A DNA stretch of 64,000 nucleotides, from NCBI GenBank assembly GCA_016209685.1, contig JACQVQ010000008.1, forward strand, positions 1 to 64,000. The letters run 5' to 3'. The stretch comes from Planctomycetota bacterium (GTDB lineage: Bacteria; Planctomycetota; Brocadiia; Brocadiales; Bathyanammoxibiaceae). The notes under the pieces were generated by a model. The model was not told where the DNA came from. It did no database searches and saw nothing but the letters and a program-made list of their open reading frames with translations. Each line of letters begins with the position of its first letter. The stretch's first letter is position 1. The translations under genes and the position numbers were made by a program. Shown one piece after another: positions 5,738 to 50,096 of this stretch.

Positions 5738-5790
5738 GTAGCCGCAGGCTTTAGCCTGCGTTAGAATCGCAACCTAAAGGTTGCGGCTAC
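5738..5790. repeat. Bipartite GTAGCCGCAGGC / GGTTGCGGCTAC repeat, copy 1
   Basis: GTAGCCGCAGGCTTTAGCC then AACCTAAAGGTTGCGGCTAC: a palindrome made of two smaller palindromes. Further copies lie at 33217-33268 and 43392-43445, always at gene ends. Confidence 0.9.
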
Positions 5791-9245: not shown

Positions 9246-9366
9246 TCAGCCCTTCCTTGCATCATTGCATGATGCCAATTTCTCTACAATCACCTAAAAG
9301 TATGCTTGTCTTAATTTCTTTCATAATTTATTAAACATTACCTCACTGTTACTTCTAACCTTACCA

Positions 9367-10440
9367 CTAAACGGCAGTACACCCCTCACCCCCTCCAAGG
9401 CCTGTCCTTGAGCTAAGCGAAGGAACAGCGGTCTTCTTCCTCTTTACTACCAGTAATTCCTGTGCCTTGTCAGGGTCAAGGGGGGCGGAGTCTATAACCC
9501 TCTCCTCACCGTTGAGCTTGATGACGACCCTTGCACTGGGGAGTGTCCTGGCCTTACTGGAGCGGACCACCAGCCCTGCCACAAGGCAGAGGGTCTCCTC
9601 CGTCAGGTCGCCCCTTACGAGGCACAACGGGCCTGTCATATCTGTGAGCATAAGGAGGGCGTCTCCCGGGCGGGCATAGTGTTCTATCCGTTGGTTCTCT
9701 TCCTCTTCTCTCCCTACCACGGCCTTGGTCCTGTCGTCCAGGCGGTAGTGCCGGCCTACCTTTAAGAGGTGGATGTCATTAAGCTCGCACTCCATATCGT
9801 GATTAAATAGCTCCTTTATGCGGTGGGCAAACATTGGGTCTGTCAGGAGACAGCCACCGGCAGGGCATGGATAGTCCTTTAGCTCAAATACGTCTGCCAG
9901 TTGTATCTGCCCCTTTCTCCCACGGCCCTTGAAGTCCAGGAGTTTTTGTCTATCTACAAGCCCTAATTTCTCCGGGAGGGTGGGGGGCATGTGTCTGGCG
10001 CAGAGGGGACGGAGTATCAGGCCCTCCAGTCCAGCCTCCCTTTCTATAACCCTCATGGCCTCACGTCGCTGACTCATGGGTCGCTGACCCAGCACCTCTC
10101 CTGTGAATACAAAGTCAGCCCCTATCTCGCGCATGAACTCCCCGGCCATCCTGAACATATTGATGCGGCAATCTATGCACGGGTTCATGTTCTTTCCGTA
10201 ACCGTACTTGGGCTTCTTGACTAGCTTGAGGAAGCTGTCCGTGATGTTGAGCATCTTTACTGGTATCCCCAGGGCCTCCGAGACCTTTTTGGCCTCGGAC
10301 TTGCAACTCCCCCCGCGGTTACAACAGCAGAATACGGTAGTGAAGTTCAGGGCCACCATCTCTACACCCAGGGACTTCATCAGGTGTACGGCCAGTGTAC
10401 TGTCCAGACCGCCCGAGAGCAGGGCCACTGCCTTTGTCAT
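9367..10440 (-). CDS. PP-loop ATP pyrophosphatase, ThiI/MnmA-like
   Basis: A 357-residue protein. The N-terminal domain is a PP-loop ATPase (SGGLDSTLA at residues 9-17), the adenylating fold used by tRNA thiolases. Cysteines occur as CCCNRGGSC near residues 38-46 and as CIDC near residue 88, with another in PAGGC near 197, suiting sulfur transfer or Fe-S binding. The C-terminal 120 residues form a separate domain seen in ThiI/MnmA-like proteins of anaerobes. A tRNA or cofactor sulfuration role is inferred, not proven. The last 20 residues are encoded by a degenerate dispersed repeat (CTGTCCTTGAGC...). It overlaps the downstream end of the metallo-hydrolase gene by 4 bases, so they form an operon. 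Confidence 0.75.
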   Translation of the reverse strand: MTKAVALLSGGLDSTLAVHLMKSLGVEMVALNFTTVFCCCNRGGSCKSEAKKVSEALGIPVKMLNITDSFLKLVKKPKYGYGKNMNPCIDCRINMFRMAGEFMREIGADFVFTGEVLGQRPMSQRREAMRVIEREAGLEGLILRPLCARHMPPTLPEKLGLVDRQKLLDFKGRGRKGQIQLADVFELKDYPCPAGGCLLTDPMFAHRIKELFNHDMECELNDIHLLKVGRHYRLDDRTKAVVGREEEENQRIEHYARPGDALLMLTDMTGPLCLVRGDLTEETLCLVAGLVVRSSKARTLPSARVVIKLNGEERVIDSAPLDPDKAQELLVVKRKKTAVPSLSSRTGLGGGEGCTAV

Positions 10441-32510: not shown

Positions 32511-33164
32511 ATGGAGGCCCTGATATTATCAGCAATCGGCGTTGGGCTGGTGCACTCCCTGGCCCCTGACCACTGGTTACCCTTTGCCTCCCTGGCCCAG
32601 GCACAGGGGTGGTCAAGGAAGAAGCTGCTGGTCGTGAGTTTCCTGGCAGGGCTTGGCCACGTGGGCTCCAGTTTTGTCCTGGGGGTACTGGGCATTGTAC
32701 TGGGCATGGGGCTGGCCCATATGGAAGGCGTAGAATCGTTCAGGGGGAACGTGGCGGGTTTCCTCCTCATCGGTTTTGGCGTAGCCTACGCCCTCTGGGG
32801 GCTAAAGCACATAAGAGACCATCATCTCCATTTCCACGAACCCAGCGACATCCGCCTCAGGCGGACTGGACTCCATAAGGGGGAGATAGTTACCTTCTGG
32901 ACCCTCATGGCCATCTTTGTCTTTGGCCCATGCGAACCTCTTATACCGTTAATGTTCCTGGCAGTCCAGCACGGCTGGAGCGGGATATGGTTGACTACCA
33001 CGGCCTTTTCTGTAACCACCGTCTTTATGGTGATGGCCCAGAGTATGCTGGCCTTCATGGGGCTAAGCCTCCTTCCACAACGCAGCCTGGAGAAATGGTC
33101 TCACGTTATGGCAGGGGGGGTAATAGCCCTCACGGGGCTGGCGGTTATGTTCCTCGGGATTTAG
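32511..33164 (+). CDS. UreH/TauE-like membrane protein, metal or sulfur permease family
   Basis: A 217-residue polytopic membrane protein of the UreH/NicO-like group. The opening HSLAPDHWLPF motif (residues 15-25) and the later FGPCEPLIPLM match His/Cys-rich metal-permease signatures. A CCGCCTCAGGCGG palindrome encodes IRLRR in a cytoplasmic loop (about residues 117-121), after the His-rich DHHLHFHE. A paralogue heads the selA-selB operon (46935-47558). It converges on the ArsM-like selenoprotein gene. Nickel/cobalt, or a selenium- or sulfur-related substrate, is possible. Confidence 0.8.
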   Translation: MEALILSAIGVGLVHSLAPDHWLPFASLAQAQGWSRKKLLVVSFLAGLGHVGSSFVLGVLGIVLGMGLAHMEGVESFRGNVAGFLLIGFGVAYALWGLKHIRDHHLHFHEPSDIRLRRTGLHKGEIVTFWTLMAIFVFGPCEPLIPLMFLAVQHGWSGIWLTTTAFSVTTVFMVMAQSMLAFMGLSLLPQRSLEKWSHVMAGGVIALTGLAVMFLGI

Positions 33165-33216: not shown

Positions 33217-33268
33217 GTAGCCGCAGGCTTTAGCCTGCGTGATTACGCAACCTAAAGGTTGCGGCTAC
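33217..33268. repeat. Bipartite GTAGCCGCAGGC / GGTTGCGGCTAC repeat, copy 2
   Basis: Same element as 5738-5790 and 43392-43445. Its right end provides the TAG stop (33265-33267) that ends the read-through frame of the methyltransferase. Confidence 0.9.
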
Positions 33269-34026
33269 ATTTTGGTAGGTTTTCTTACCGTGAAGGCGGC
33301 GCCTGTGGTGTATTGCGAGGTACGGTAGCCCGTCTTGCCCACCATCTTTACGTCCACAAAGCCTGTCTTCTCCAAGAGTCCCAGGAAGGCCCTCCCTGGT
33401 ATGGCGCCGCTGATTCAGTTGGACCACTGGCCGAGTTTTTCTACCGTGGCCTGGTCTACGCCCTCTTCCAATATTATGTCTGCGGCCTGAATACGCCCCC
33501 CGGGTCTCAAAACCCTGTAAATCTCTGCTAACACCTGGGCCTTTTGGGGCGAGAGGTTCACCAGGCCGTTAAAAATGACAAGGTCTACGGAGTCGTTTTT
33601 CAGGGGGAGGCTTTCCGCCATTCCTTCGCGGAATTCTACATTGGTAATGCCGAGCCTTTGCTTGTTGGCCTCCGCCTTCTCCACCATCTCTGGGGTCATG
33701 TCTATACCAATGACCCTCCCCGTTGGGCCTACCCGTCTTAATGCCAGGAAGGCGTCAAGCCCGGCCCCAGAGCCAACATCCAGAACCCTCTCCCCTGCAT
33801 GTATTGGCCCCAAACCCAAAGGGTATCCCACCCCTGCGAAGGACTCAGTAACGGAAGGCGGGAAGGAGTCAATCTCTTGCGGGTCATAGCCCAGGTTCTT
33901 TGCACTCTCAGGGCCTATGGGCACCCTCTTTTCTGAGGAGGGTTCTACGCCGATCCTCCTGAAACGGGCCTGTACCTGTGCTTTAATTTCGTTGTCGTCC
34001 AATCTCTCTTCCTTGTTAGACAGCAT
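33265..34026 (-). CDS. ArsM-like SAM methyltransferase, predicted selenoprotein (UGA = Sec204)
   Basis: A class I SAM-dependent methyltransferase: LDVGSGAGLDAFLA (motif I) and IGIDMTPEMVEKA match arsenite-methyltransferase proteins. The frame stops at UGA (33415-33417) after GQWSN, then continues without another stop for 49 codons as ISGAIPGRAFLGLLEKTGF...TTGAAFTVRKPTKM to a TAG at 33265. In ArsM proteins the UGA position is a conserved arsenic-binding Cys (CVSGA). With Sec inserted the protein is 253 residues. No Cys occurs anywhere in it, and the other ArsM Cys site reads Gly (IFNGLVNL). SelA and SelB are encoded at 43.5-46.9 kb. The substrate (As, Se, Te or another soft metal) is unknown. 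If Sec is not inserted, it is a truncated 203-residue gene. Confidence 0.8.
33381..33399 (-). promoter_or_regulatory. Putative bacterial SECIS hairpin
   Basis: Sixteen bases downstream of the UGA the mRNA can form a 7-bp stem (CCAGGGA with UUCCUGG, one G-U) closed by a GGGCC loop. The G-starting loop at 23-27 bases after the UGA fits the distance range and loop rule for bacterial SECIS elements. Found by eye. Confidence 0.55.
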
Positions 34027-34125: not shown

Positions 34126-34377
34126 TTAAGGTAGAATCTTAAGTCGTCTAAGGTCGTCTTCACTCCAGCAGGCCTGGTCTGCAATTATTCTCTTGAGGGT
34201 TTTCAAAGGAAAGGTCTCACCCGAACGGTGAAAAGAAACAGTAACTCTTCGCCCGTCGGAATGGCGGTAGTGTTGGTGAGAACCGGACTGCCGGTCCAGA
34301 ACAAATCCGTCTCTGGTAAGGGCAGAGGTTAGTTCCCGGGCAGTAAGGCTGCGAAGTCGCCCATACTCAATGGCCAT
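34126..34377 (-). CDS. hicA: HicA family toxin (mRNA interferase)
   Basis: An 83-residue HicA/YcfA-type double-stranded-RNA-binding-fold toxin. The sequence shows the family pattern: SLTARELTSALTRDGF, then DRQSGSHQHYRH with the catalytic His, and RVTVSFHRSGETFPLKTLKRIIAD. It would cleave mRNAs when free of its antitoxin. It lies 3 bases downstream of hicB, the antitoxin-first order. It is the first of three toxin-antitoxin remnants or systems in 2.4 kb. Confidence 0.88.
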   Translation of the reverse strand: MAIEYGRLRSLTARELTSALTRDGFVLDRQSGSHQHYRHSDGRRVTVSFHRSGETFPLKTLKRIIADQACWSEDDLRRLKILP

Positions 34378-34380
34378 AGC

Positions 34381-34626
34381 CTAGACAGTCACAGCTACCT
34401 GGGGTTCGCTGGAGAGTCGCACAGCATCCTCTGGTCCCTCTGGGATGGGTTCTCCATGTTCCCGAAGGCTTTGAATGACCATCTTCACAACTTCCTCAAT
34501 ATTCTTCAAGGCCTCCTCTCTAGTGTAACCCCATGTGGAGGCCCCTTGTCGAAGAAGGGCCGGGCAATATGCAGCCCACCGGTCATCATCCGGCTCAACG
34601 ATGACCCGGAAAATATAGGTTTTCAC
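34381..34626 (-). CDS. hicB: HicB family antitoxin
   Basis: An 81-residue HicB-type antitoxin with the partial RNase-H-like fold: YIFRVIVEPDDDRWAAYCPAL, then GASTWGYTREEALKNIEEVVKMVIQS. No C-terminal DNA-binding domain is evident, so autoregulation may be weak. I start it at the GTG at 34626, which has a GGGAGG Shine-Dalgarno 8 bases upstream; the ATG at 34665 would leave almost no leader behind the likely promoter at 34677-34704. It is cotranscribed with hicA. Confidence 0.87.
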   Translation of the reverse strand: MKTYIFRVIVEPDDDRWAAYCPALLRQGASTWGYTREEALKNIEEVVKMVIQSLREHGEPIPEGPEDAVRLSSEPQVAVTV

Positions 34627-34676
34627 TCCACTATCCTCCCTGGAAATGTGCCTTCCACCTTTCATACTCTAGCCCC

Positions 34677-43391: not shown

Positions 43392-43445
43392 GTAGCCGCA
43401 GGCTTTAGCCTGCGAGAAATAACGCAACCTAAAGGTTGCGGCTAC
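43392..43445. repeat. Bipartite GTAGCCGCAGGC / GGTTGCGGCTAC repeat, copy 3
   Basis: It sits between the convergent DUF1571 and selB genes. Same element as 5738-5790 and 33217-33268. Confidence 0.9.
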
Positions 43446-43459
43446 TATCTGCCACCTAC

Positions 43460-45517
43460 CTACCGTCTACTTTCTACTGAACCGTGCAGCACCCTCCTAT
43501 CCCCCTCCCTCCTGGTAAAGTGTATACTGTCAAGGTATTCCAGAAGCGGTACGGCGTATTTCCTGGAGGTATTGACAAGGTCCCTGAGGTCTGCCACCGT
43601 TATGGAGCCCTTTTCCTTTATGAAGCCTGCTACCAGCCCCTTTAACTCCTCCAGTACCTTTGCATGGATGTAAAGACTTTTTTCTATCTCTATCAAGGTC
43701 TTTTGTTCCAGGAGTAATGAAAGGAGGTCCTGGTGCGTCTTCCGTTGCGAAGGTCCTTGAGGGCGGCATCCACCTGAGGCGGACTCCTGAGTTAACAGTG
43801 TCTCCGGAGCCGGCGGGTTAAACTTTCCTTGCAAGAAGGCCCTCTCCATTTCCTCCGCAATCTTCTTGTCCTCCTGAGAGAGCTTGACCTGAAAACCTGA
43901 AGTAGAAACCCTATGGTCCGAGATGGTAACGAGACCCTCACGGCTCAGTTCAGTAAGGACTAAGGAGAAGAGGGGGGAAGGTATCTCCCTGGAGAGGTGT
44001 ACTTTCAGGGTCGACTCCTCCACCCCCATCCTCAGTGGGTTAGTCCTGTGGAAATCTTCCAGACCCTTCAGCATCTTGATTTTTAAGGACTCCAACCTCC
44101 GCCTGTCCACTAACAGCACCTTGGAATCCTCTCTGATTGTAGTCAAAATCCCTTTAGCCATTAATTCCGTTACTGCCTCTCTTACCCTGGAGGGGTGAAT
44201 GTTGAGGGATTTTACCAATTCCTCCTCAGAGAGGAGGTAATTTCTACTGCTACGGAGGGCCTGTCCGATTACCTCCCTGTCGTCTCCCTCCAGGAGGATT
44301 TGTAACTCCTTGAGGGTATCTTCCTGGAAGCGTCTAAGCCTGGAGGCACAGCCCCTCAAGACCTTTCCCCCACCTATGGTGCGGCATGGGGAGTATGAGC
44401 GGATTACGTAGTGTTCTCCCCTCTCGGCCACTACAGGCCCTTCCAGGCGGAATTGGACGAGGCCCTTCTCTCCAGGCATTAAGACCTCTTTATCCAGGAG
44501 CACCACCCTGCCCATAACCTCCGTGGTGGCGATATGAAACCGGACCCGTTCTCCATTCCTGAGGGGTCGGTGAGAGGCGGCATCCGCCCGCCCAAAAGGC
44601 TTGTCCTGAGCGAAGCCGAAGGATGGCGGATTTTCAACCTGAGGCGGACCCCCGGCACTAGAGAGATGATGGAGATGGCAGTCCAGGAGTTCGGCAGGGC
44701 TTAGATAACCCGGTACCGACAGCTCAAAACCACGCCTGACCTCGGAGGTCTTTATTCCTCCAAGATTGAGGGCCGCTCGCTGTCCCTTTACGGCGGACTC
44801 TACTTTCTCCCCATGGACCTCTATGCCCCTTACCCTGACTGCCTCCTTTACGGGGAGTAACTCCACCTCTTCCCCCACCTTTACCTGACCGCTAAGCACC
44901 GTCCCGGTAACCACGCAACCAAAACCCTGGACGGTAAAGGCCCTGTCTATGGGGAGACGAAAGAGGCCCTGGACGGCCTCCTCTTCCGTACCTTCCAGTA
45001 GCCCTCTTATTACCTCCTTTAGTTCTGCGATCCCTTCCCCCTTTAGAGAATCTACTTCTATCATCGGCGCCCCCCAAAGAAACGTCCCCTTTGTCAGTTC
45101 CTTAATGTCTTCTTTAACCAGTGCAAGCCATTCCCTGTCCACCAGGTCTTTTTTTGTGATAACCACTGCACCGTGTCTAAGCCCAAGGAGTCCCAGTATC
45201 TCCAGGTGTTCCACGGTCTGGGGCATGACGCCGTCATCGGCGGCCACTACCAGGAGGGCTATGTCAATACCAGTGGCCCCGGCCAGCATATTCTTTACGA
45301 AGCGTTCGTGCCCTGGGACGTCTACAATGCCCACCCGCCATTTTGTGCCGGTAGTGCTGGCGCCTTCCAGGTCCATGTAGGCGAACCCCAGGTCTATGGT
45401 TATCCCCCGTGCCTTCTCTTCGGGTAGGCGGTCAGTATCTATCCCCGTCAGGGCCTTCACCAGGGCAGTCTTGCCGTGGTCTATGTGCCCTGCGGTACCA
45501 ATTACAGCCCTCTTCAC
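43460..45517 (-). CDS. selB: Selenocysteine-specific elongation factor SelB
   Basis: A 685-residue SelB. The EF-Tu-like GTPase has [10 protein letters not shown] (G1), GITIDLGFA (G2), DVPGHERF (G3) and TKKD (G4). Domains II-III follow, then four C-terminal winged helices that bind the SECIS RNA. It delivers Sec-tRNA to UGA codons. In-frame repeats add residues near 289-310 ([19 protein letters not shown], from 44589-44650) and near 570-585 ([11 protein letters not shown]). The catalytic motifs are intact. It is downstream of selA by 17 bases. Confidence 0.96.
44589..44650. repeat. Dispersed CTTGTCCTGAGCGAAGCC element within selB
   Basis: The reverse complement of the intergenic unit at 23286-23330, followed by ACCTGAGGCGGAC. 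It is in frame and lies in a loop of SelB domain II/III. Confidence 0.88.
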
Positions 45518-45534
45518 TAAATATCTCCTACCCC

Positions 45535-46935
45535 CTACTCCCTAATAATATAGTACCTGACTAGGGCGGAGAGTATCTCCCCTGATTCCTCTTTGTTCCG
45601 CACGGTGCGGAAATCAAGGAGTACCCTATCCCTCTCTATCCTTCCTAGGATAGAGGGTACGTTCATTCGCAGCATATCAGACAGTTCCTGGGCGCTGTAA
45701 GGTCTGGGATTTATGGACAGGAGTCTGGTGGGTATCTCCTCGCCGGGGAGAGAACCTCCGCCTATGGTAGAGAAGCCATCCTCTATGGAGACCTCTACTC
45801 CAGGGGTCATCCCAGAGAGTTCCTTGACAAATTCCCGACACTGCCCCTCTATCTCCTCTACAGGACGGGCAATCATCTCCAGGATGGGTAGGGTCTCTGT
45901 GAGGGTTTCCTTATTGGCGTACAATCCCAGGGTTGCCTCCAGGGCCGCAATAGATAGCTTTCCCATCCTCAGGGCCCTGGTCAGGGGGTTCTTTTTCATA
46001 AGATTAATAAGGTCCCTCTTCCCAACTATCACCCCCCCCTGGGGACCTCCCAGGAGTTTATCCGTGCTGAAGGTGGTAATGTCCACCCCCGCTTCCACAC
46101 TCTCCTGGACGGTGGGTTCGTGGGAAAGGCCATAAGAGGCAAAGTCAATCAAGGCTCCACTGCCCAGGTCATACATTACGGGGAGGCCGTGCTCCCTCCC
46201 CAAGTCTGCCAACTCTGCTATACCCACTTCGGCCGTAAAGCCCACCATCCTGAAATTGCTGGGATGCACCATGAGGAGGAGGGCCGTGTCGGGGGTTATT
46301 GCCTTCTTATAGTCGGCAAGGTAGGTCTTATTGGTAGTGCCCACCTCCCTGAGGATGGCCCCACCCTTCTCCATTACCTCAGGCATACGGAAGGAGCCGC
46401 CTATCTCTACCAGTTGACTGCGGGAGACGATGACCTCTTTACCCCTGGCGAGCGTGTCCAGGGCAAGTAGGACTGCGGCGGCGTTGTTATTTACTACCAT
46501 CCCTGCCTCCGCCCCCGTCAGGGTACAAACCAGCGTCTCCAGGTACTCCCCCCTGGGCGCCCTCTTCCCCGTGGACAGGTCAGTCTCCAGGGAGCAGTAA
46601 CCCTTCGCCCGTTCCTGGACGTCTTCCAGGGCCTTTAGGGGTAGGGGTGAACGCCCCAAGCAGGTATGGATGACAACCCCGGTGGCATTTATCACCCTCT
46701 GTAGGGAGAGTCTGGTCTTATTCATGAGTCTGGCCTTTATCATAGAGACGATGGCATCAGGCGAGAGGTCTACCTCCGACTCATTCCGTTTCAATGCCCC
46801 CCGCAGGTCCTCAAGGACCTCCCTCACTGTAGAGACGATTAGACCCCTGGGGTAGGTAAGGCTTAGATTGGCTAGCCCCTGGCTCTCCAGTAATTCATGA
46901 ACAGAGGGTATATTTCTCAGGCCTTCTTTTTCCAT
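45535..46935 (-). CDS. selA: L-seryl-tRNA(Sec) selenium transferase SelA
   Basis: A 466-residue PLP enzyme that converts Ser-tRNA(Sec) to Sec-tRNA(Sec). The N-terminal [18 protein letters not shown] and NNNAAAVLL match the family, and the PLP Lys is in [12 protein letters not shown] near residue 292. It is flanked by selB downstream and overlaps the UreH-like gene by one base upstream (TGATG). SelD and the tRNA(Sec) gene were not found in the window, so they must be elsewhere. Confidence 0.97.
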
Positions 46936-47558
46936 CAGGAATGATGATAGATGATAAGGGCCAAACCAGTGAGGATTAATAACGAACCGATTATCTGTCT
47001 CTCGTAATCTTCAAGCCACTCCAGATTAAGTACCTTTATCCCTTTGTAGGCCAGGGCAGTCAGGGAGACCATCCCCAGGATATTGGCCAGGGTGAGGGCC
47101 AGGGCCATGAGGAGCAGGACCGGCCATGTAAAGGTACTGGCGACCAGGAACATGGGGAGGAGTTCCACGCACGGTGACAAGATGGCCATAGTAAAAAGAG
47201 AAAGTGCCGCGGCCTTATCCGAAAGGACAGGATTAGTAGAGGTATTACCGTGCTTGTGGTCTTTGGCGAAGATAATAAAACCTAGACCTAGCAGTAGCAG
47301 CAAACCGCTAGTTAATACCTCACCGCCTTCCACGTACCTGGTAACCTGGAGTCCCAGGAAGGTCACCCCAAAACCCAGGGCTACGCTCACCAGGGATTTG
47401 CCCAGCCCGCTCACGGCCGTTATGGTCAGGGTCTTAGCCATAGACCACCTCTGCCCCTTCCCCACCAGGGCAAAGGGCATCCAGTGATGCGGCTCAACGG
47501 TATGAACCAGGGTGATGATGAATAAGGCTAAGACTATGCTAAGGGGTTGATAATGCAC
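46935..47558 (-). CDS. UreH-like membrane permease in the selAB operon
   Basis: A 207-residue polytopic protein homologous to 32511-33164. It has HTVEPHHWMPFALVGKGQRW at the start and ILSPCVELLPMFL in the middle, so the His and Cys positions of the family are kept. The GTG start has a GGGAGG Shine-Dalgarno. It is first in the operon with selA and selB. Selenium- or metal-linked transport is an attractive inference from context, not shown by sequence. Confidence 0.78.
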   Translation of the reverse strand: MHYQPLSIVLALFIITLVHTVEPHHWMPFALVGKGQRWSMAKTLTITAVSGLGKSLVSVALGFGVTFLGLQVTRYVEGGEVLTSGLLLLLGLGFIIFAKDHKHGNTSTNPVLSDKAAALSLFTMAILSPCVELLPMFLVASTFTWPVLLLMALALTLANILGMVSLTALAYKGIKVLNLEWLEDYERQIIGSLLILTGLALIIYHHS

Positions 47559-49067: not shown

Positions 49068-50096
49068 ATGAAACGCCTTCCGTTGGGGAAACTAGACCCT
49101 AGACTGCTCACCAAACTCCTGGAAAAGTACACCGGGGCCACGAACTCACAGCTAGTGATAGGTCCCTCTGTAGGCGAGGATGCGGCAGTCATCCGCCTCA
49201 GGCGGATGGGGGACAGATACCTGGTAGCCAAGAGCGACCCCATCACCTACGCCACTGAACGCATAGGCTGGTATGCCGTACACATAAATGCCAATGACAT
49301 AGCCACCCTGGGGGCTGAACCTAAGTGGTTCCTTGCTACCTTACTCCTTCCCGAAGGAAAGACCGACAAGAGGCTGGTAAGGGGCATCTTTGCCGATATG
49401 GCCAGGGCCGCAAAGGAGTTGGGGGTAGCCCTCTCTGGAGGACACACGGAAGTAACCCCTGGGCTTGATAGACCAATATTAATTGGGCATATGCTGGGCG
49501 AGGTGGCCAGGGATATACTCGTCCTGAAGACCAATGCCGGGCCAGGGGACAGGATTATCTTGACAAAGGGCATAGCAATAGAAGGCACGGCCCTTTTAGC
49601 CAGGGAGAAATCAGGGGAACTGGTGACCCACTTCGGTAAGGCTTTCGTACAAAGGGCAAAAAGATTTCTACTTGCGCCAGGAATCAGCGTAGTCAAAGAG
49701 GCCCTTACCGCCGCCAAAGTCGCAAGGGTCCACGCCATGCACGACCTTACGGAAGGGGGACTGGCCACAGGCATACGGGAAATGGCAGAGATTGCCGGCC
49801 TGGGGGCTGAGGTGGATAGACAAAGGATACCCATCTTTCCAGAGACACAAGAGCTTTGTTCCTATTACGGTCTTGACCCCCTGGGCACTATAGCCTCCGG
49901 GTCCCTGCTTATTGCGGTGGCCAAGCGGGACAGGGATAAGGTGCTCTCCGCCCTGAGGGCAGAGGGGATACGTGCCGAGGACATAGGTTGCCTTGTAGAA
50001 AAGGCCAGGGGGCTGAAACTAATGGAGGATGGACGGCTAAAGGATTTCTCCACTTTTAAGGTGGATGAGGTAACCAGAATACTAGGTAACAGGTAA
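49068..50096 (+). CDS. AIR synthase-like (HypE/ThiL-superfamily) protein
   Basis: A 342-residue protein of the AIR synthase/PurM superfamily. It has GPSVGEDAAVI near residue 35, DPITYATERIG...HINANDIATLGAEPKWF, and GGHTEVTPGLDRP in the middle. It resembles archaeal and bacterial 'AIR synthase related' and HypE-like proteins; the substrate is not known. It lacks the N-terminal Cys/Sec of SelD. A palindrome CATCCGCCTCAGGCGGATG encodes IRLRRM near residues 44-49. Confidence 0.75.
   Translation: MKRLPLGKLDPRLLTKLLEKYTGATNSQLVIGPSVGEDAAVIRLRRMGDRYLVAKSDPITYATERIGWYAVHINANDIATLGAEPKWFLATLLLPEGKTDKRLVRGIFADMARAAKELGVALSGGHTEVTPGLDRPILIGHMLGEVARDILVLKTNAGPGDRIILTKGIAIEGTALLAREKSGELVTHFGKAFVQRAKRFLLAPGISVVKEALTAAKVARVHAMHDLTEGGLATGIREMAEIAGLGAEVDRQRIPIFPETQELCSYYGLDPLGTIASGSLLIAVAKRDRDKVLSALRAEGIRAEDIGCLVEKARGLKLMEDGRLKDFSTFKVDEVTRILGNR

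Follow-up and report, generated by a model that had tools for sequence, protein, structure and literature searches.

A methyltransferase gene of the ArsM superfamily, located on the minus strand (33265..34026) of the 64,000-nucleotide stretch of planctomycete DNA that was analysed as a whole (the window), contains an in-frame UGA codon (33415..33417, minus strand) that on comparative evidence is almost certainly read as selenocysteine (Sec204), giving a full-length selenoprotein of 253 residues. The codon lies in the alignment column of the ArsM cysteine Cys224 and is also TGA in relatives of the gene.

A standard gene caller ends the gene at this codon, reporting an open reading frame of 203 amino acids (33415-34026, minus strand) with TGA directly after the residues GQWSN, which is the truncated annotation that an earlier, sequence-only reading of the window had anticipated. 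That reading had followed the frame past UGA for 49 more codons to a TAG, and the frame is confirmed: it translates as ISGAIPGRAFLGLLEKTGF... up to the TAG at 33265-33267, the whole product being 253 residues plus the stop. The same reading had remarked on the lack of cysteine, and the full-length translation indeed contains none, residue 204 being coded by TGA. The true start of the gene may be TTG 34002 instead of ATG 34026; in two homologues (L008 and L010) the protein starts with the residue that aligns with TTG 34002.

The in-frame TGA is conserved. In other genomes of the same family it is kept in six of eight (G001, G002, G003, G005, G006 and G008, not G004 and G007; matches of E 1e-30 or better). 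A search of 392 genomes from the phylum, the window genome among them, gave a match at E 1e-48 or better in 17, and in 13 of these the TGA is present. Genomes of named species were also scanned, the best 80 loci of 329 relatives being kept; one relative locus is that of Candidatus Uabimicrobium amorphum (L080). When residues 154 and 204 were classified in 166 frames from 161 loci, the pair was Cys/Cys in 80, Gly/Sec in 75, Gly/Cys in 10, and Gly with an unaligned position 204 in 1. Thus 165 of 166 frames have Cys or Sec in column 204, as do all 46 further loci; the codon is TGA in 75 Gly154 frames and 12 Cys154 frames, and the Cys rows examined use TGC or TGT. Genes with Gly154 and Sec204 occur at least in Planctomycetota, Chloroflexota, Nitrospirota, Acidobacteriota, Myxococcota, Deferribacterota and others. 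Downstream of the UGA, dN/dS is 0.30 or less in 17 of 21 pairs drawn from seven family members, these being the pairs with computable dS (the other four were left out for saturated dS), and the sequence after the UGA is under purifying selection. The sequence-only reading had named a sense codon other than Cys at this column, or dN/dS near 1 after it, as evidence against selenocysteine; the homologues have only Cys or Sec, no other sense codon occurs among the relatives classified, and dN/dS is far below 1.

A bSECIS hairpin of 8 bp is predicted just downstream (33381..33399, minus strand), with a GGC loop that starts 26 nt past the first base of UGA. Taken alone, the window hairpin is no stronger than shuffled sequences (z of -0.17 for synonymous and +0.61 for dinucleotide shuffles), and an Rfam search gave no family match; the bSECIS claim rests on a trait of the family, not on the single window sequence. 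A criterion defined after inspection of the hairpins of Sec genes (-6 kcal/mol or better, with a loop starting with G 18-30 nt after the first UGA base) selects 59 of 68 distinct Gly/Sec sequences, and none of 10 Gly/Cys or 78 Cys/Cys sequences. Against synonymous-codon shuffles, mean z is -1.27 for 41 Gly/Sec sequences, -0.07 for 8 Gly/Cys and +0.05 for 49 Cys/Cys (Mann-Whitney p 1.6e-8 for Gly/Sec versus the other two classes together). Covariation was assessed in 28 sequences that share one register, of which 98.7% of cells are paired, a figure biased upward because the sequences were picked for pairing. This set has double changes in 16 cells versus 4.0 in shuffles, and a covariation score of 0.299 versus 0.156; four of five measures were reached by none of 500 shuffles, and on the fifth, the count of pairs showing double changes (three), 9 of 500 shuffles came as high.

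Part of the machinery for selenocysteine insertion is encoded nearby. As had been claimed, genes for SelA and SelB lie about 10 kb from the methyltransferase gene: selB, the Sec-specific elongation factor (43460..45517, minus strand; TIGR00475, 364 bits), and selA, the L-seryl-tRNA(Sec) selenium transferase (45535..46935, minus strand; TIGR00474, 572 bits), both scoring above cut-off. The presence of selC and selD in the genome had been put forward as a further check, which came out well for the first, a tRNA-Sec with a UCA anticodon, and not for the second, no SelD above cut-off being found in the assembly (94.6% complete). The missing selD is likely a gap in this assembly; SelD was found in all six same-family genomes searched and in G120, each selD having its own TGA. 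The gene at 49068-50096 was considered as a candidate selD and rejected, with 98.7 bits against a cut-off of 125 and a higher score (113.2) for a HypE-like model.

Among 29 genomes, hand-picked from those already met, SelB above cut-off was found in 21 of 24 with the Sec gene and in none of four with a Cys version of the same Gly154 branch (G397, G424, G425 and G426); it was also found in G416, a genome with canonical ArsM. The three Sec-gene genomes without SelB above cut-off are G198 (85% complete), G343 (64%) and G023 (99%). The methyltransferase match of G023 (L015) lacks the N-terminal 62 residues, contains a second TGA, and looks like a gene decaying in the absence of the Sec machinery. 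Another relative from the same genus, which belongs to the same order as the window genome, is L014, with one TGA; its genome (G046) has SelB and no SelD above cut-off.

That the UGA simply ends translation or stems from a sequencing error, leaving a 203-residue protein or a pseudogene, is very improbable. This reading gains something from the length of the frame beyond UGA, since by base composition alone 49 open codons would be expected by chance with P ~0.08, making the open run by itself weak evidence, and from the use of TGA as the normal stop of two of 18 other window genes checked. The open run is regarded as more than chance because the same TGA is conserved in relatives from independent genomes, the dN/dS values indicate purifying selection downstream, and the hairpin is present across the family; the restriction of column 204 to Cys or Sec and the association with SelB also speak against a stop, and the selenoprotein proposed in the sequence-only reading is supported by this evidence. 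An alternative genetic code was likewise rejected: TGA also ends the two other window genes, and so code 11 with selenocysteine was kept.

The 253-residue protein has a SAM methyltransferase domain (Pfam Methyltransf_31/25/11), with a stretch LDVGSGAGLD (33754..33783, minus strand) that we take to be SAM-binding motif I. Its best three NCBIfam models are Sec fusion families, NF041537 (260.7 bits, cut-off 510), NF041536 (243.7 bits, cut-off 575) and NF047649 (238.9 bits, cut-off 460), all with scores below cut-off, and it also misses the threshold of canonical ArsM (PRK11873, NF008823; 215.7 bits, cut-off 263). The nearest solved structures by sequence are ArsM and AS3MT. An AlphaFold model (31 sequences; mean pLDDT 92.4) gave ArsM or AS3MT as all of the best 13 chains in a Foldseek search of the PDB (TM-score by query 0.64-0.68, rmsd 4-6); the modelled protein has the ArsM fold together with the SAM motif.

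Alignment with the structure 5evj places Val66 (codon 33829..33831, minus strand), Gly154 (33565..33567, minus strand; supported also by the class counts) and residue 204 opposite three cysteines. In CmArsM, Cys72, Cys174 and Cys224 are described as binding arsenite (PMC5552862), and we read these three as corresponding to the columns of Val66, Gly154 and Sec204. Conserved cysteines at the three CmArsM positions are missing here, their places being taken by Val, Gly and Sec. The sequence-only reading had put UGA at a conserved arsenic-binding ArsM cysteine and a glycine at the second thiol site; the alignment agrees on both, as Cys224 and Gly154, and adds a valine at the third site, Cys72.

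These substitutions extend well beyond the window. Column 66 is Val in 63 of 68 Gly/Sec rows (with three Thr and two Ile) and in 9 of 10 Gly/Cys rows, and Cys in 77 of 79 Cys/Cys rows; Gly154 in all 78 rows of what is here called the V-G branch is its class definition. The alignment shows that in this branch Cys72 has mostly become Val and Cys174 Gly, and that only the position of Cys224 has been kept, as Sec or, more rarely, Cys. In a tree of 157 rows, the Cys/Cys rows fall to one side of a branch with support 86 and the Gly/Cys rows are nested among the Gly/Sec rows; well-supported branches require at least three changes of the Gly/Cys label, so that Cys and Sec have been exchanged more than once within the V-G branch, the tree fixing no direction. 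The Gly/Sec sequence L212 (G421, an NC10 bacterium) falls on the canonical side of the tree on a long branch, and may represent either a third origin of Sec or an artefact of a quick tree. Two adjacent Sec-ArsM genes, both with Gly154 and Sec204, were observed at one locus (L074:8001-8660 and about 9294-9923), and again as L213. Cysteines elsewhere in the protein are common, only 5 of 68 Gly/Sec rows having none besides Sec; the others often have them at columns 64, 86 or 159. The description of a single chalcogen is therefore limited to the window protein and to the three canonical sites.

A rule that Sec excludes Cys174 was considered, there being no such combination in the 161 loci, a sample biased by its query; it was refuted by 16 further loci, among which 12 weaker matches with one TGA all have Cys66, Cys154 and Sec204. 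Three stronger matches have Val, Gly and Sec at these columns, and L246 has Leu, Cys and Cys without Sec. The 12 Cys/Cys/Sec loci (L234-L245) come from the phylum to which G415, an uncultured delta-proteobacterium, belongs, and form a single clade inside canonical ArsM (support 96). Each of the 12 forms a hairpin at -6.4 kcal/mol or better, its loop at 23-24 nt, but in only five does the loop start with G, as the criterion asks. A canonical ArsM query of 400 Chloroflexota-side genomes (phylum of G419) found no internal stop among the matches listed, and Cys154 with Cys204 in 30 of the 30 loci classified. Most simply, Sec would have been taken up at column 204 at least twice. The loss of the other two ligands characterises the V-G branch and does not go with Sec itself. 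We propose, tentatively, that the widespread V-G branch (mostly Val66, Gly154, and Sec or Cys204, with Sec in the majority of rows sampled) has abandoned the two- or three-thiolate arsenic site, so that of the three ligands only a single selenolate is still conserved. Its members, though annotated as arsenite methyltransferases, may act on a different soft element or on a thiol adduct formed beforehand, and Sec would have been adopted a second time by an ArsM keeping all of its ligands.

The explanation that accounts best for the window protein, and that we consider probable, is that of an ArsM-superfamily selenoprotein that methylates a soft element by way of Sec204; its assignment as a soft-element methyltransferase, considered separately, is held with slightly less confidence. 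SelB and tRNA-Sec, with the downstream bSECIS hairpin, would decode the UGA at codon 204 as Sec, and SAM would be bound in the usual methyltransferase fold. Sec204, at the ArsM arsenic site, would be the one residue of the protein that acts as ligand or nucleophile towards a soft substrate. This substrate would most probably be trivalent arsenic already bound to a small thiol, or failing that a species of selenium or tellurium, and the methyl group would pass from SAM to the soft element held by Sec204. That one thiol can suffice follows from TtArsM of Thermus thermophilus, which is reported to methylate arsenite with a single Cys (PMC8649762), although TtArsM is a distant protein with no Sec, its proposed ligands being Cys77 and two His.

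Two other roles for the selenoprotein were weighed against this explanation. One, which is unlikely but overlaps it in part, so that the odds of the two do not sum to one, has a chalcogen as substrate (selenide, a selenol, hydrosulfide or an organic thiol) in place of arsenic, the loss of Cys72 and Cys174 having removed As(III) binding and turned the branch into selenium or sulfur methyltransferases. Two of the three arsenic ligands are gone throughout the branch, in Sec and Cys members alike, and a canonical Cys-Cys ArsM, fused to a radical SAM-SPASM protein (L215:696-3164, contig C6, 822 aa), is encoded in the same genome, so that arsenite methylation may already be covered; ArsM matches of this kind also lie within open frames of 600-870 aa in other genomes of the order. 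No arsenic genes were found among the annotated neighbours of the Sec-ArsM gene. In L081 and L087 the gene just upstream encodes an ArsR-type regulator with a rhodanese (sulfur-transfer) domain; L069 has an ArsR-type regulator next to it on the opposite strand, and L053 has a separate rhodanese as neighbour, but these neighbours occur at single loci only. The residue that has been retained is, moreover, one of those that bind arsenic, and the single-cysteine activity of TtArsM (PMC8649762) again favours arsenic.

The other role, rated lower still, is mainly redox: Sec204 would reduce a pentavalent intermediate or exchange a selenenylsulfide with a partner, and would not ligate the substrate. 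Fusions to AhpD, DUF2284 or UXPK-star domains occur among known relatives, and AhpD and UXX-star proteins are redox-like. A paper of 2007 on catalytic redox-active cysteines is cited for the Sec-containing ArsM in the relevant entry of a review (PMC13188914). A redox cycle of this kind fits poorly with a window protein that has no resolving Cys, and the alignment puts column 204 at a cysteine described in PMC5552862 as binding arsenic. Methylation of a soft element held by Sec204 stays the preferred function.

The idea of a selenocysteine-containing ArsM is not new, because one with a UxxG motif and three Sec fusion families have already been catalogued, and the window gene adds a member. The 2026 review (PMC13188914) tabulates a Sec arsenite methyltransferase (WP_011987699.1) with UxxG and one Sec under the label 'experimentally verified', giving Fomenko 2007 as reference, and also tabulates the three fusion families, for which it refers to Haft and Tolstoy 2025; the Sec arsenite methyltransferase is listed in PMC9312934 as well. 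By its description in that table, WP_011987699.1 resembles the window protein in its ArsM family, its one Sec and its UxxG, which is U-I-S-G here. The N-terminal methyltransferase parts of NF041537 (ArsM/AhpD), NF041536 (ArsM/DUF2284) and NF047649 (methyltransferase/UXPK-star) align with residues 9-252 (10-250 for NF047649), and the NF041537 loci above cut-off (L182-L185), with L186 just below, have Gly154 and Sec204 as does the window protein. These families have a fused C-terminal domain, whereas the window protein ends after the methyltransferase part and is far below their cut-offs. With canonical ArsM (PRK11873, NF008823), CrArsM (5evj), CmArsM (4fr0) and human AS3MT (8xt7) it shares the fold, the SAM motif and the alignment at position 204, but it has Val, Gly and Sec in place of their Cys72, Cys174 and Cys224. 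The canonical-type Sec loci (L234-L245) have the same Sec column and downstream hairpin as the window gene but, unlike the window protein, keep Cys66 and Cys154, and they form a separate clade.

No description of the division between Val-Gly-Sec and Cys-Cys-Sec proteins was found in the portions of the literature covered by the search (PMC13188914, PMC9312934, PMC9723677, PMC5552862, PMC8649762, PMC4807772 and PMC12013277). A stand-alone Sec-ArsM gene is now documented in this planctomycete family. The results suggest that a gene annotated as truncated, or as an arsenite methyltransferase, can encode a complete selenoenzyme whose metal site is altered. Since Sec and Cys versions occur in nature both with and without the other two ligands, the contribution of each ArsM ligand can be tested directly.

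The Sec-ArsM gene is adjoined by a convergent membrane-protein gene (32511..33164, plus strand), a neighbour conserved within the family (adjacent in the window, L008, L009, L012 and L216), for which no Pfam or NCBIfam match was found at the thresholds used. A paralogue with 26% identity (46935-47558, minus strand), also membrane-protein-like and with no Pfam or NCBIfam match, overlaps the start of selA, ahead of selA-selB. Matches to this pair were found in 21 of 29 genomes searched, own genome included, and the two are possibly selenium or metal transporters, which is a guess. No neighbour cluster common to the whole branch was found among the 10 neighbours annotated; ArsR-type, LysR, sigma-54 and ECF-sigma regulators are each found beside single groups outside the family of the window genome.

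Directly ahead of the Sec-ArsM gene, at 34126-34665 on the minus strand, are a HicA toxin gene (PF07927) and a small upstream gene, the latter in a HicB-like position and having no family match. A palindromic 20-mer, a REP-like element, has perfect copies at 5741-5760, 33220-33239 and 43395-43414, where shuffling expects 0. It lies within a 24-nt inverted repeat overlapping the stop codon of the Sec-ArsM gene, and another of the copies is found about 46 nt past the stop of selB.
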